Part shown: positions 14,735-37,221 of the stretch, one piece after another | Layout of the letters: every line of letters starts with the position of its first letter | Position numbering within the stretch: position 1 is the first letter of the stretch | Notes under the pieces: model-generated | Databases searched by the model: none | Told to the model about the DNA's origin: nothing | What the model saw: only the letters and a program-made list of their open reading frames with translations | Source: Lachnospiraceae bacterium | GTDB lineage: Bacteria > Bacillota > Clostridia > Lachnospirales > Lachnospiraceae | Direction: 5' to 3' | DNA: 37,221 nucleotides | NCBI GenBank assembly: GCA_017619975.1 | Contig: JAFZRH010000016.1 | Span: 1 to 37,221 of the forward strand | Program-made: the position numbers and the translations under genes

Positions 14735-15829
14735 ATGAAGATAAACGGTAAAAAAAGCATTTGGGAGCTCATTACGGCGGGAATTCTCGGCGTTCTTTTT
14801 GTTTTTGTGCTGACGGCATGTTTTGTGCGCGTTCCCGCTTCGGCAAGAATCTCCGTCAATGAGTCTCTTTTGTCTCTGATCCAGGATCAGGCGAAGGATG
14901 AAAACGGGGCGGAAGCCTCCTGCGTGCAGGCGGCGGAAAGCTCCCGTCAGAAACGGATCCAGGATTCCATCGATTACAGTATTTACGTAGAGGAATCCAT
15001 TGCGGCGTCCGTTTCGGAATCTGCCTCCGTGGAAGAATCGATCCGGGAATCCATCGAGGAGTCTCAGTGGCAGGAGAGGAAAAGCTCGATCGCGGCTTCT
15101 CTTCTGGAACAGGCCGCGCTTTATGAATCTTTAGAGGAAAGCAGCCGCGAAGAAGAAGCTTATATGGAATGGCTGTTGGCTTCCATGGATGCCTCCCGTG
15201 AAGCATCCATAGCGGCTTCCAAAGAAGAGGCCTCGCTGGAAGCTTCCCGGGAAGCCGCGTCAAGAGAAGCCTCCAGACAAGCGGCGGAGAATCAGACCAG
15301 TCCGATCGTAACGCCCTGGAACGGGGAGAACGTCGTATTTTTCGGAGATTCCCGCACCTCTGGCTTTTATCCGAAGATCTATAACTGCTGGCCGGCACAC
15401 CTGATCGGACATACGATTTCCCGTTCCTGGGGAGATGTCGCGAAGCAGGAACTGCAGGCCCTGATCGCCCAGAACCCTGTCAAAGCCGTGTTTATGAATG
15501 CGGGGGACGATGTCAGTGCCGGGCTTGATGTTGCTATCACAAAATATGAAGGCGTTATCCGGGATTTCTCGGCTCAGGTCCCCAACTGCAAGATCTACGT
15601 CGTTTATGCGATCCCTGCCACGGCCGAAGCCGTCGAAGCGCGTTCTTTCCTGGGACTGCTGCCGCAATATAATGTATTGCTGAAGGAAATGTGCGAGCGG
15701 AACGGCTGGACCTTCGTCTATGGCGCGCAGGGCTTTTCTGATGCATGCTATGCCTCTGACGGCGTCCACTTTACTCCCTCCTGGACACGGCAGTGGTTCA
15801 ATAATATCCGGGCGGAGGTAGGATTCTGA
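14735..15829 (+). CDS. Membrane-anchored SGNH-hydrolase-like protein with Ser/Glu/Ala-rich stalk
   Basis: 364-aa surface protein. Residues 9-35 are one hydrophobic segment that ends in LTAC (Cys29), so it is either a membrane anchor or a lipoprotein signal. Residues about 65-190 are a low-complexity, highly charged stretch built from ES/EAS/REAS repeats (for example EASREAASREASRQ), likely a long helical stalk. Residues 200-360 form a GDSL/SGNH-type domain: GDSRTSGFY gives the nucleophile Ser206, and DGVHFTP (342-348) the Asp/His pair. Such hydrolases add or remove acyl groups on surface glycans. It shares one base with the DUF4358 start and precedes an MBOAT acyltransferase, which fits an acyl-transfer role. 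The substrate is unknown. Confidence 0.85.
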   Translation: MKINGKKSIWELITAGILGVLFVFVLTACFVRVPASARISVNESLLSLIQDQAKDENGAEASCVQAAESSRQKRIQDSIDYSIYVEESIAASVSESASVEESIRESIEESQWQERKSSIAASLLEQAALYESLEESSREEEAYMEWLLASMDASREASIAASKEEASLEASREAASREASRQAAENQTSPIVTPWNGENVVFFGDSRTSGFYPKIYNCWPAHLIGHTISRSWGDVAKQELQALIAQNPVKAVFMNAGDDVSAGLDVAITKYEGVIRDFSAQVPNCKIYVVYAIPATAEAVEARSFLGLLPQYNVLLKEMCERNGWTFVYGAQGFSDACYASDGVHFTPSWTRQWFNNIRAEVGF

Positions 15830-19032: not shown

Positions 19033-19375
19033 GGGGTTGTACTGGTTTCGACGGGGGTTTTGAAGTTCGGGGCGCCATCCGCAGACCGTGGCTGCGCAAA
19101 AAAACGGAACCTAAATATAAACGCCAACAACAACGTTGCGTTAGCTGCTTAAGCAGCTTGTCGGCCCGGGGCTGCCTGCCCCTCCGGTCACCGGCATCAT
19201 GAACGGCAGGGCACTGACGCGCCTAAGCTTTGCGGTGCGAACAGTAAAATGAAGCTACTGAAGTCCTGAGCCTGTCTGCGGGCGCCTGACGGAGGGAATG
19301 TCAAATCACAGACTATGATGGTAGGGCCCGGGAGGGAGAGGCTTTCGGACAGGGGTTCGATTCCCCTCAGCTCCA
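19033..19375 (+). ncRNA. ssrA: tmRNA (transfer-messenger RNA)
   Basis: Trans-translation RNA that frees stalled ribosomes and tags the unfinished peptide. The 5' GGGGTTG pairs with the 3' CAGCTCC, forming the tRNA-like acceptor, and the 3' T arm reads GGTTCGATTCC. The mRNA-like part holds the resume codon GCC (19123) and tag ANNNVALAA, ending in TAA at 19150-19152. The LAA tail is the usual degradation signal. CCA is not encoded after the discriminator A at 19375. The gene is a normal one-piece tmRNA of about 343 nt. It lies between the acylation operon and guaB with its own promoter and terminator. Confidence 0.97.
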
Positions 19376-19382
19376 TAGCTGA

Positions 19383-32353: not shown

Positions 32354-33028
32354 TTAGGATAAGGCCATCTCCCGGACCTTTTCCATAGCTTTGTGAACAG
32401 GCGGAAGCATAATGATGATACAGGTGATCACGGCTTCGATCCCGATATAGCTGATATTATAAAGCGCCGAATAAACAGCGGGATTCATCCCCTCCGGGGC
32501 ATAATAAGCAAAGAATAAATATCCGCTTAAAAAAGCAAAGACAAAGCGGCCGAAAGCGCCCAGAATATATCCTTTCAGTAAGCCTTCTTTGGCTTCGCTG
32601 AAGAAGCCTGATAAGCCGAGCGCGGCAAAGGCCAGCGGATAATCGACCAGCATCTGCGGCAAACTGTAAATGGAACTCCCCAGAAGCAGCTGCAGGATCC
32701 CGTGGGCAAAGCCGGTCAGAAGGCCGGCAGCAGGGCCGTAGATCCAGCCGATCAGCACCACAAAGAGCATGCTCATCAGCGTAACGGATCCGCCCATGGG
32801 TGCCTGGAAGAGCTTCACTTCGGAAAGCACGGTGGCCAGGGCAATGGCAACAGCAGAAAAGACCAGCTGTTTCGTCGGGATCGTCCGGTTTTTCTTACTG
32901 ACCAGAGCGATTGCCAGCGCAAGCAGCATCAGGAACAGTACGATAAAGAAGATGTATCCCCAGGTGTTTAAGCGATAAACGGTCTCATCATATTTGTTGA
33001 CGGTTTCATAGAAAAAAAGGTGCAGCAT
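32354..33028 (-). CDS. thiT: Thiamine ECF transporter substrate-binding protein ThiT
   Basis: 224-aa membrane S component for thiamine uptake by energy-coupling factor transporters. The core from residue 58 matches ThiT: AIALATVLSEVKLFQAPMGGSVTLMSM, with conserved residues split here as AIALATVLSEVKLF / QAPMGGSVTLMSM, then SIYSLPQMLVDYPLAF. It has an extra N-terminal membrane segment (about 24-46) not present in the shorter Bacillus form. ATG with AAAGGAG in the leader; a TPP riboswitch directly precedes it, fixing the substrate as thiamine. First gene of a seven-gene run. Confidence 0.94.
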   Translation of the reverse strand: MLHLFFYETVNKYDETVYRLNTWGYIFFIVLFLMLLALAIALVSKKNRTIPTKQLVFSAVAIALATVLSEVKLFQAPMGGSVTLMSMLFVVLIGWIYGPAAGLLTGFAHGILQLLLGSSIYSLPQMLVDYPLAFAALGLSGFFSEAKEGLLKGYILGAFGRFVFAFLSGYLFFAYYAPEGMNPAVYSALYNISYIGIEAVITCIIIMLPPVHKAMEKVREMALS

Positions 33029-33035
33029 ATTTCTC

Positions 33036-33104
33036 TCCTTTCGCCGGTATGATCCGGATCAAGTTCTAAGGGTATGTTCTCAGCCGAACGGCACCCCCGG
33101 ACAT
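33036..33104 (-). promoter_or_regulatory. TPP riboswitch upstream of thiT
   Basis: On the minus strand the THI-box core is clear: GGGGGTGCC, then GGCTGAGA, then ATACCC, then TTGATCCGGATCATACCGGCG. Pairing gives GGGT with ACCC (P2), GCC-GTTC-GGC (P3) and CCGG with CCGG (P5). The Shine-Dalgarno AAAGGAG directly follows the P1 3' strand, about 10 nt before the ATG, and no terminator hairpin lies between, so translational control by TPP is the likely mode. Confidence 0.95.
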
Positions 33105-33125
33105 ATTTTTATTTGATTGATTTTT

Positions 33126-35545: not shown

Positions 35546-35551
35546 GAATCT

Positions 35552-35728
35552 GCCTGGGTTGTACGAACGCCTTACTGTTTTTGAACCTACAGTATGACAT
35601 AAGGGACTCCTATATTTTCAGGTGGCTGTCAGGCCTCCGTCGAGTGGAAGGCAAAAGCCTGAGTGCGGAAACCCGCTTAGCGAGAGCTAGGCGTCAAAAA
35701 GTAAGGAACGGCATCCTGGGTCTCTTTT
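35552..35728 (+). ncRNA. ssrS: Structured RNA, probable 6S RNA
   Basis: About 177 nt with promoter and no ORF, between divergent and convergent genes. The ends pair: CCTTACT (about 35570-35576) with AGTAAGG (35700-35706), and outside that GGGTTGT with GCATCCT (one U-U mismatch). The 3' strand ACGGCATCCTGGG resembles the closing strand of known 6S RNAs. Inside are a large AT-rich 5' bubble and small hairpins AGGC-AAAA-GCCT, GCGG-AAAC-CCGC and TAGC-GAGA-GCTA. A CTTTTTG tract ends it. 6S RNA binds the housekeeping RNA polymerase holoenzyme and damps transcription in slow growth. Length fits. SRP RNA was considered and lacks its conserved tip. Identified by eye, not by covariance model. Confidence 0.65.
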
Positions 35729-35733
35729 TGTCT

Positions 35734-36681
35734 TTACAGGGTCACGACCTCTTCTGCCGGGGCCTCCGCATCTTTCAGATCGATCAGCCGCAGAACCGGC
35801 ACCTGCACGGGATTCCCGCTTCGGGGATCTTTTCTTTTTTCCGTCCCGAATTCCACCGTGATCGTATGCCAGCTGTTGTTCGCAAAGCGCAGCGGCCTGT
35901 CACTCTTGCAGGGAAAACCGTAAAACTGAATATCCGCCGCGCAGCAGGCCATGATCTTCCGTCCCGGAACGAACATGTTTTTCGGCATGCCGATCGGCCG
36001 GAAAAGCTGACAAAGAAAGGTGATCCGTTTTTTCAGATACCGCTCCGGATTCTCCGAAGCATCCGAGAAAAACGTCCCGTAGTCGATCTCGTCCACGGTA
36101 AAGGCCGGCGCTTTGATATCGTAAGGCAGGTCTTCTTCCCCGAACTCGATGATCTCGCCGGTCACCGATTCAAAGATCAGCTGGGCTACCGGATTCTGCA
36201 GCTTGATCGCTTTGCGGAACTGCTGGCGGTTCAAATCTTTCCGGCAGCGGTTGATCACGATCAGATCAGATTCCGTGTGCTGGCTCATAAACAGATTCCG
36301 CATGTTGTTCATGACCAGTTCCAGATCTTCGCCGTTTACAACGGAATAGATACCGGCCAGTCCCCAGTTCTTTGGGAAATCCTTCTGCAGAAAGTCCTTC
36401 AGATTCCACATCCCGTTGAACTCAATGATGATCTGCGCCGGCCGCATGGCCGCCGTAATCTCCTCACAGTAGTCCTTGGTAAATACGTCCGGTGAACCGA
36501 TCGGAATACTGACGAGTTTTTTCCGCTGCCTGTACGCTTCCGTCAGCTCATGTTCGCCTTCTTCGCAGAGGATCAGAAGGGTGGTGCCCTTTCCCATCCA
36601 CTCCTGCTCCATAAGGGTATTTTCTATAAATGTCGTCTTTCCGCTGTCCAGAAGGCCGGCAACGATATAGACAGGAATCAT
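35734..36681 (-). CDS. COG0523-like GTPase fused to a TIGR03943/DUF1980-like domain
   Basis: 315-aa P-loop protein of the G3E (CobW/UreG/HypB) GTPase family, which deliver metals to target enzymes. Walker A is AGLLDSGKTT (8-17). Departures from canonical members: the CxCC metal motif is replaced by LCEEGEHE (38-45), and the NKxD-type specificity site reads NRCRKD (144-149). Residues about 215-305 form a C-terminal domain with MACCAAD (244-250) and GFPC, resembling the CC-A-D signature of the YcgQ/TIGR03943 family, which accompanies Zn-regulated permeases. ATG is preceded by TAAGGAG that overlaps the stop of the upstream gene, so translation is coupled. Metal unknown; zinc is the best guess. 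Confidence 0.8.
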   Translation of the reverse strand: MIPVYIVAGLLDSGKTTFIENTLMEQEWMGKGTTLLILCEEGEHELTEAYRQRKKLVSIPIGSPDVFTKDYCEEITAAMRPAQIIIEFNGMWNLKDFLQKDFPKNWGLAGIYSVVNGEDLELVMNNMRNLFMSQHTESDLIVINRCRKDLNRQQFRKAIKLQNPVAQLIFESVTGEIIEFGEEDLPYDIKAPAFTVDEIDYGTFFSDASENPERYLKKRITFLCQLFRPIGMPKNMFVPGRKIMACCAADIQFYGFPCKSDRPLRFANNSWHTITVEFGTEKRKDPRSGNPVQVPVLRLIDLKDAEAPAEEVVTL

Positions 36682-36690
36682 GCTCTCTCC

Positions 36691-37221
36691 TTATTTCAGG
36701 CCGAAGAGTTCAGCCAGCTTCTCTTCTTTCAGTTCGCAGCCGATCACGCACAGCCGTCCGGTATAATCCGCTTCGCATGTCCTGACCTCGGTCTCTTCCG
36801 GGACCAGATCGAACTGACGCCAGCTGCCGTCCGCCATCGGGATGATGCCTTTCGCCCGAAGAATGATCTGACCGTATTCGCCGTTCTCATCTGCCAGCGC
36901 CTTCAGGATGCCTGCCAGTTCCTCTTCCGTATACTTTCTGGCACTTTCACGGCCCCAGCTCGTAAAGACTTCATCCGCGTCATGCTCGCCGGGATGGTGA
37001 TGATGATGGTGGTGCTCATGCCCGTGATGGTGGCAGCATTCGTGCTCCTCGTCATCATCGTCGTGGTGATGGTGGCAGCACTCATGCTCGTCGTCATCAT
37101 GACCATGGTGATGGTGATGGTGGTGTTCGTGCTCTTCCTCGTCGTCATCATCATCGTGATGATGGTGATGGTGGCACTCGCATTCGGGATCGTCACATTC
37201 TTCGCCGTCATGGTGATGGTG
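36691..37221 (-). CDS. CobW C-terminal-domain protein with extreme His/Asp/Cys tract, 5' end outside window
   Basis: The reverse strand is open for 177 codons from the window edge to TAA (36691-36693). Residues 1-80 of the fragment hold 37 histidines and 7 cysteines amid Asp/Glu runs, including a near-tandem unit DDDEHECCHHHH then DDDDEEHECCHHHGH. Residues about 85-177 are a CobW C-terminal domain: IILRAKGIIPMADGSWRQFDLV and TGRLCVIGCELKEEKLAEL, quoted in parts: LRAKGIIPMADGSWRQFD and GRLCVIGCELKEEKL. A GTPase domain is expected before the His tract, off the window. Such His-rich COG0523 proteins chaperone or store Zn, Ni or Co. It lies 9 nt upstream of the other GTPase gene. Confidence 0.88.
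   Translation of the reverse strand, partial: HHHHDGEECDDPECECHHHHHHDDDDDEEEHEHHHHHHHGHDDDEHECCHHHHDDDDEEHECCHHHGHEHHHHHHHPGEHDADEVFTSWGRESARKYTEEELAGILKALADENGEYGQIILRAKGIIPMADGSWRQFDLVPEETEVRTCEADYTGRLCVIGCELKEEKLAELFGLK

Follow-up and report, generated by a model that had tools for sequence, protein, structure and literature searches.

A COG0523 protein with a histidine-rich tract and a constant GTPase-DUF1980_C partner in Lachnospiraceae, probably concerned with zinc

COG0523 proteins of the G3E class, such as YjiA of E. coli (PDB 1nij, 4ixm), combine a GTPase fold bearing a Walker A motif, a Walker B glutamate and a GCxCC metal motif with a CobW_C domain. YciC/ZagA-type proteins of Bacillus share this COG0523 architecture and have a role in zinc. 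According to excerpts of Haas 2009 (PMC2770081), an intact NKXD motif separates G3E proteins from their class and the Walker B glutamate is a G3E feature; up to 29 His are reported among 887 COG0523 proteins, and the N-terminal His stretch of HypB from Bradyrhizobium japonicum binds 18 Ni per dimer. The latter, a His-rich metal-storing stretch on a G3E GTPase, is the closest worked analogue of the mechanism that we propose below. A further described system pairs an ArsP_1 permease with a TIGR03943 (DUF1980) protein; in Bacillus anthracis, an excerpt of PMC6336718 reports, Zur binds in vitro to the Zur boxes of both BAS1632, an ArsP_1 permease gene, and yciC.

The CobW protein described here has the domains and motifs listed for YjiA, which is its best match in both sequence and fold, but it reads SRTQ where the aligned YjiA has TKTD. 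It also contains at least 37 His together with Cys, Asp and Glu, against the maximum of 29 cited above, and has a constant GTPase-DUF1980_C partner that sets it apart from COG0523 proteins and YjiA alike. Compared with HypB, its tract lies between domains instead of at the N-terminus and is rich in Cys and poly-Asp, a CobW_C domain is present, and the protein is not generally found with HypA. Relatives of the present CobW are partly found in a zinc-importer context; unlike YciC/ZagA, however, it has a long tract and a different partner, and no Bacillus-type Zur box stands out. In the full-text literature, a coverage that mostly excludes subscription journals, we recognised no paper describing this CobW/partner pair, and neither DUF1980 nor TIGR03943 occurred in the top matches checked for them.

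The window, by which we mean the whole 37,221-nucleotide stretch analysed, is the entire contig C24 of a 2.12-Mb assembly of 82 contigs from a gut bacterium. The reading frame of interest enters at the contig end and terminates with TAA (Table 1); the contig breaks off inside the tract, and the true tract is longer than the tabulated interval. Its first 80 codons specify 37 His, 15 Asp, 15 Glu, 7 Cys, 4 Gly and 2 Pro, in agreement with the 37 His and 7 Cys of the preliminary description. The repeat of about 13-15 residues placed there at 37024-37098, which translates as DDDEHECCHHHHDDDDEEHECCHHH, is borne out as a 14-residue unit in 2.2 copies with 86% matches. The CobW-type identity proposed there is supported by a profile match of the CobW_C domain, and the GTPase domain expected upstream is present at the end of contig C33, which holds the best CobW GTPase domain of the genome (PF02492, 137 bits). 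The tract's His density is not due to chance: across all six frames of window bases 1-36900, other 80-codon stretches reach at most 11 His, and when the bases of the tract were shuffled 2000 times, the His count averaged 3.7 with a maximum of 10. Genome-wide, 12 of the 14 matches to (CAY)5 fall within the two halves of this gene, while the other two, on contigs C60 and C62, showed no HHHH in the open frames inspected.

Table 1. Features of the split CobW gene and its partner gene; positions are those of the window unless another contig is named.
Feature	Position	Strand	Remarks
His-tract CobW (COG0523) gene, C-terminal half	36691..37221	minus	176 aa, open 5' end
His/Asp/Glu/Cys tract, 80 codons	36982..37221	minus	linker between GTPase and CobW_C domains
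42-bp tandem repeat, DDD-EHECC-HHH unit	37024..37116	minus	Tandem Repeats Finder
CobW_C domain (PF07683)	36703..36963	minus	frame residues 87-173; 27.8 bits, cut-off 22
Partner gene, 315 aa	35734..36681	minus	G3E/CobW-type GTPase domain fused to DUF1980_C
Partner GTPase-like domain (PF02492)	36244..36675	minus	residues 3-146, without CxCC motif
DUF1980_C domain (PF21537) of partner	35752..36114	minus	residues 190-310
N-terminal GTPase half of His-tract CobW	L003:6017-6706, end of contig C33, same assembly		profile match

The half on C33 begins after leuS, carries GFLGAGKTT and GCICC, and exits the contig in ...EEEEHEHHHHHHHH, contributing 11 further His before the contig end. Since the ends of C33 and the window share just 7 bases, the total tract length is not fixed by the two halves. 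In a sister species (L073), one contig carries leuS, an unbroken CobW gene, the partner gene and then genes resembling cytidylate kinase and PEP carboxykinase, which is the order of C33's end and then the window's end; leuS and the two enzyme genes after the partner are named by our presumption from the sequences. The CobW protein of this species has 415 aa, with a 111-aa tract of 47 His and 9 Cys; from a shared anchor to CobW_C, the window gene counts 76 residues against 59 in the sister species. Together with L072, a Lachnospiraceae MAG, L073 (a Bacillota MAG from goat omasum) is nearest to our genome among the best 80 of at least 585 relatives, with a partner identity of 95%. The frame is conserved in unbroken relatives, in support of the reading in the preliminary description. 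All 15 same-genus loci examined have leuS adjoining the His-tract CobW. In another genus (L081), a leuS-like gene, named by eye, lies downstream of the partner, while leuS precedes the pair in the window's genus; as a speculation, clients could include a LeuRS that has CxxC pairs.

The Walker A motif (GxxxxGKT; GFLGAGKTT in L003), the GCxCC metal motif (GCICC) and the Walker B glutamate (E91, in IIIEPSG of L003) are invariant in 58 aligned proteins. The NKXD base motif is not intact, being SRTQ in our protein and in 16 of the 27 rows of the 'lach' set (20 of the 80 named loci and 8 relatives in the linker comparison below), and elsewhere mostly other SR or SH variants, also TRIE and SKTI. GTP use is for this reason assumed for the CobW, which is a divergent COG0523/G3E relative that keeps the other features and not a member to the letter of the NKXD definition. 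In an AlphaFold model of the L073 protein, the GTPase and CobW_C domains are confident, while most of residues 200-319 (the linker) have a pLDDT under 50, as does most of the low-confidence CICC loop (39-69). By this model, the tract is predicted to be disordered and to connect two folded domains. The fold that best matches the modelled protein is that of YjiA, in its Zn(II)-bound form as well.

The partner gene starts 9 bases past the CobW stop. Its DUF1980_C domain scores 54.3 bits (cut-off 25.9), and C246, C247 and C258 of this domain are invariant in a 60-row alignment. The DUF1980_C terminus is shared with the ArsP_1/TIGR03943 pair, and in sister clusters the GTPase is fused to ArsP_1; the present partner, by contrast, has no hydrophobic segment over threshold, no profile match to ArsP_1 or to PF09323 (the N-terminal membrane part of TIGR03943), and a TIGR03943 score below the curated cut-off (54.9 vs 88.8 bits). 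The partner was modelled with a mean pLDDT of 91.6, and the fold of its GTPase domain resembles HypB and YjiA in a comparison informative for residues 1-183. A diverged paralogue of the partner (27% identity; G000:C45:5626-6516, L176:2540-3544) is found in the same genome, with no His-tract CobW among its adjoining frames.

Several other features of the window were identified. A 6S RNA (RF00013, 66.7 bits) lies just downstream of the partner on the opposite strand (35548-35726, plus), and a tmRNA gene (RF00023, 165.3 bits) lies at 19033-19378 (plus). A TPP riboswitch (33019-33108, minus, 67.4 bits) is located upstream of a 224-aa membrane-like protein (32354-33028) that may be a thiamine transporter component, and a 364-aa protein (14735-15829, plus) has a long Ala/Ser/Glu-rich repetitive stretch followed by a part judged hydrolase-like by eye.

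The 80 named loci are the best of the at least 585 relatives found in a scan with the partner alignment. A whole His-tract CobW lies beside the partner in 74 of them, namely 72 parsed loci (L130 with ambiguous letters), L140, and L135, which starts at a contig edge. The remaining six comprise three loci cut by a contig edge (L105, L111, L149), one with a run of N within the tract (L091), one with only 70 bases upstream (L095), and L072, which is probably a chimera. By our scoring rule the tracts of the 72 loci measure 24-142 aa (median 79), or 31-142 aa with L078 set aside, whose score of 24 aa is a scoring artefact and which measured 111 otherwise. They contain 14-56 His (median 38; above 29 in 55 of 72) and 0-15 Cys. 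In a sample of 391 genomes from across the class, 76 have the soluble partner, by a manual count of listed rows that includes the partial G130 and excludes the partial G190, and 95 have any match at 1e-20. A long His/Cys tract is the norm for this orthologous group and not a one-off, and the partner gene is constant. No third conserved gene was found beyond the partner; recurring neighbours are scattered.

Tract size goes together with partner architecture. One genome of the same family, and others elsewhere in the class, carry what we call the permease type: here the GTPase domain of the partner either forms a fusion with an ArsP_1 permease or sits next to one, and a membrane TIGR03943-like protein comes next wherever the stretch was read. 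The CobW linker has 0-13 His in this type (21 loci, median 2) and 11-58 His in the soluble type (57 loci, medians 36.5 and 39), a difference with a Mann-Whitney p of 2e-11, uncorrected for kinship. Besides the 'lach' set, this comparison used a 'sol' set of 31 of the 35 soluble-type regions, omitting L233, L235, L244 and L246 (CobW outside the stretch or cut); L226 and L053 were lost to the motif filter, though both have tracts. Permease matches without a CobW in the flank (L190, L194, L198, L200, L201, L205, L206, L207 and L210) were left out, and at L187, L191 and L193 CobW and permease gene are divergently oriented. Four genomes have both types, with permease-type vs soluble-type counts of 1 vs 46 (G301), 1 vs 34 (G307), 1 vs 29 (G226) and 1 vs 11 His (G037).

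In a CobW tree, a branch (69/74, 68% of bootstraps) sets the permease types apart from the others, with the permease-type L197 and L203 on long branches. In a midpoint-rooted partner tree, which holds 40 of the 47 intended soluble rows after the motif filter dropped L223, L230, L234, L236, L237, L256 and L257, the soluble type forms one group (99/96, 98% of bootstraps) nested among the permease types. Since both trees fit a single switch, whose direction would be from permease to soluble type, the link between tract and architecture is best counted as about one evolutionary event; we therefore rejected its treatment as independent replicates.

Genomic context offers some indication of the metal. 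In G034, znuA, an ABC ATPase gene, znuB, CobW and partner run in one direction, with znuACB directly before the pair, and in G018 two genes separate the pair from a downstream znuA, ABC ATPase gene and znuB (both ATPases assigned by eye). In G301, a FUR-family gene, a short frame, znuACB, a tract-less CobW, a GTPase-ArsP_1 fusion and TIGR03943 likewise run in one direction. The three ZnuA proteins have His-rich loops; among NCBIfam models the binding proteins are closest to those for zinc, with manganese next, and none reaches a cut-off. Among the 80 loci, 2 have ZnuA and 6 a ZIP transporter, which is adjacent in 3. Just 39 of 61 relatives have ZIP over cut-off anywhere, and a rough estimate puts the chance expectation at about 0.3; the ZIP matches of L089 and L091 are near-identical, and the six loci may represent five lineages. 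Neither ZnuA nor ZIP was found in 72 of the 80 loci within the DNA examined, and our own genome has no ZIP match and one ZnuA match, on another contig. The metal of the pair is probably zinc, as several genomes have znuACB or ZIP genes next to the pair or next to its permease-type cousin.

Regulatory elements were also searched for. Upstream of 154 CobW genes, including some near-duplicates, the best scores for a Bacillus-type Zur box equalled those of shuffles, leaving Zur control through such a box unsupported; this consensus may not be that of Clostridia. As our CobW follows leuS, its promoter may lie further up, beyond the stretch scored. No metal or B12 riboswitch was found near the CobW gene in 19 sources. 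In Anaerosporobacter, a ZMP/ZTP riboswitch (L133:11345-11426, plus, 64.5 bits) lies about 4.4 kb downstream of the pair, not adjacent to it. A role as cobalamin CobW sensu stricto was rejected, there being no match to cobN (PF02514) in our genome, which is 94% complete (5 of 14 control genomes have one), and no B12 riboswitch at gathering score in the window or L003.

We consider it fairly likely that the protein acts in the cytosol as a metallochaperone of the COG0523 type, with zinc as its most likely metal, a His/Cys/Asp/Glu linker that holds many ions and a dedicated partner. The folded GTPase-like domain, with its CICC metal site, and CobW_C would flank a long disordered linker whose His, Cys, Asp and Glu residues would collect and hold many metal ions, which we infer to be zinc. 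Transfer out of the collected pool would be gated by the GTPase-like domain as it binds and hydrolyses nucleotide, CICC would take over metal from the linker, and the metal would be passed on to client proteins. GTPase-DUF1980_C would be the dedicated partner, probably the other half of a hand-over complex. The protein may in this way act as a store as well as a chaperone.

Nickel, like zinc, is bound by His-rich chains, and the protein could instead store and chaperone nickel (or cobalt), in the manner of HypB proteins with a His stretch, for hydrogenase or some other nickel enzyme. The nickel loading of Bradyrhizobium HypB, the two HypA matches of our genome and its two adjacent PF02492 GTPases without a His stretch, which we take to be HypB-like, agree with such a role. 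We nevertheless regard it as unlikely, given that HypA is over cut-off in 6 of 17 partner-bearing same-family genomes of other genera (some incomplete), that the informative neighbours are zinc importers, and that neither cobN nor a B12 riboswitch was found in the searches above. A link to hydrogenase in particular was rejected on the remaining 11 of these 17 genomes.

There is little probability that the tract is mainly a detoxifying sponge buffering excess Zn, Cd or Cu, with the GTPase secondary. While the size and Cys content of the tract would suit this role, and the ArsP_1 relative of G301 weakly matches a Cu/Zn efflux family (63.5 bits, cut-off 300), the invariance of the Walker A and CICC residues and the finding of importers as metal neighbours both argue against it.

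The tract DNA had been described as a near-microsatellite likely to vary in length between strains. The first term fits just in part: the codons are mixed (His 19 CAC/18 CAT; Asp 8 GAC/7 GAT; Glu 9 GAG/6 GAA), on which ground recent codon-level slippage was rejected, and neighbouring His codons switch between CAC and CAT more often than expected, the same codon being used in 6 of 25 adjacent pairs against about 12.5 expected. This alternation may reflect a hexamer repeat or avoidance of slippage. Same-codon pairs likewise number 7 of 32 in the L073 tract, about half the expectation; pooled over ten loci, L073 included, they number 94 of 182 against 102 expected, and L132 leans the opposite way. 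Length variation is seen between species (31-142 aa), which is what the comparison covered. The presumed rarity of His with CC and poly-Asp holds even within the subfamily, 5 of 72 tracts combining His, CC and a run of at least 4 Asp. The wide variation in sequence and length of the tract (L078 set aside), like the tandem repeat, is what one would expect if the tract were a nearly neutral low-complexity expansion of little function. That reading is very improbable, however, as the presence of the tract and its His/Cys/Asp/Glu make-up are kept across many families with mixed synonymous codons, and the permease-type paralogues of the same genomes have no tract.

Among 16 same-genus assemblies (15 scanned together, and G006 read from a separate scan), the CobW gene is whole in 8 and the partner in 15. 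Five of the broken copies end exactly in the tract, the contig of G012 ends 30 residues into CobW_C, G008 loses the frame and G006 is split. The tract is thus a recurrent assembly break point, and this is why the present finding sits at a contig end. In L072:74-1462 (same contig as G010:C25), this tract and CobW_C are joined in one ORF to another COG0523 GTPase (with GYLGSGKTT), while G010:C129 carries the expected GTPase half and ends in the tract; this ORF is probably a chimera assembled through the repeat, or else a domain swap. Despite these breaks and this joined ORF, we give almost no credence to the tract being a collapsed or chimeric assembly artefact, since unbroken copies of the gene exist in the sister species L073, on a complete chromosome of Blautia parvula (L131) and on contigs of 2.3 and 5.4 Mb from isolates (L132, which is Kineothrix alysoides, and L074).

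Returning to a zinc metallochaperone with a storing linker, the pair may derive from a permease-linked module of CobW, GTPase-ArsP_1 permease and TIGR03943. The present lineage would then have shed the permease part, joined the GTPase to the soluble TIGR03943 end and come to have a His-rich CobW linker. That the tract occurs where the partner has lost the permease suggests a soluble zinc sponge in place of, or beside, the membrane route. More tentatively, and with rather more doubt than belief, one may picture a single switch in an ancestor within the Clostridia, in which the permease disappeared, its GTPase became fused to the TIGR03943 soluble end, and the CobW acquired a disordered His/Cys/Asp linker as a cytosolic zinc reservoir replacing that route, loaded and emptied by two unequal GTPase-like proteins. 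Given the altered base-recognition motif, these two may read a nucleotide other than GTP.

The tract, first noted as a peculiarity of one gene, is standard in its orthologous group, has a constant partner gene and is tied to the architecture of that partner. Because it breaks assemblies, MAG databases probably hold many truncated copies of this gene. A tract size tied to a specific change in gene architecture provides a testable handle on the role of COG0523 His stretches, and the genomes with both versions permit a paired experiment within one cell.
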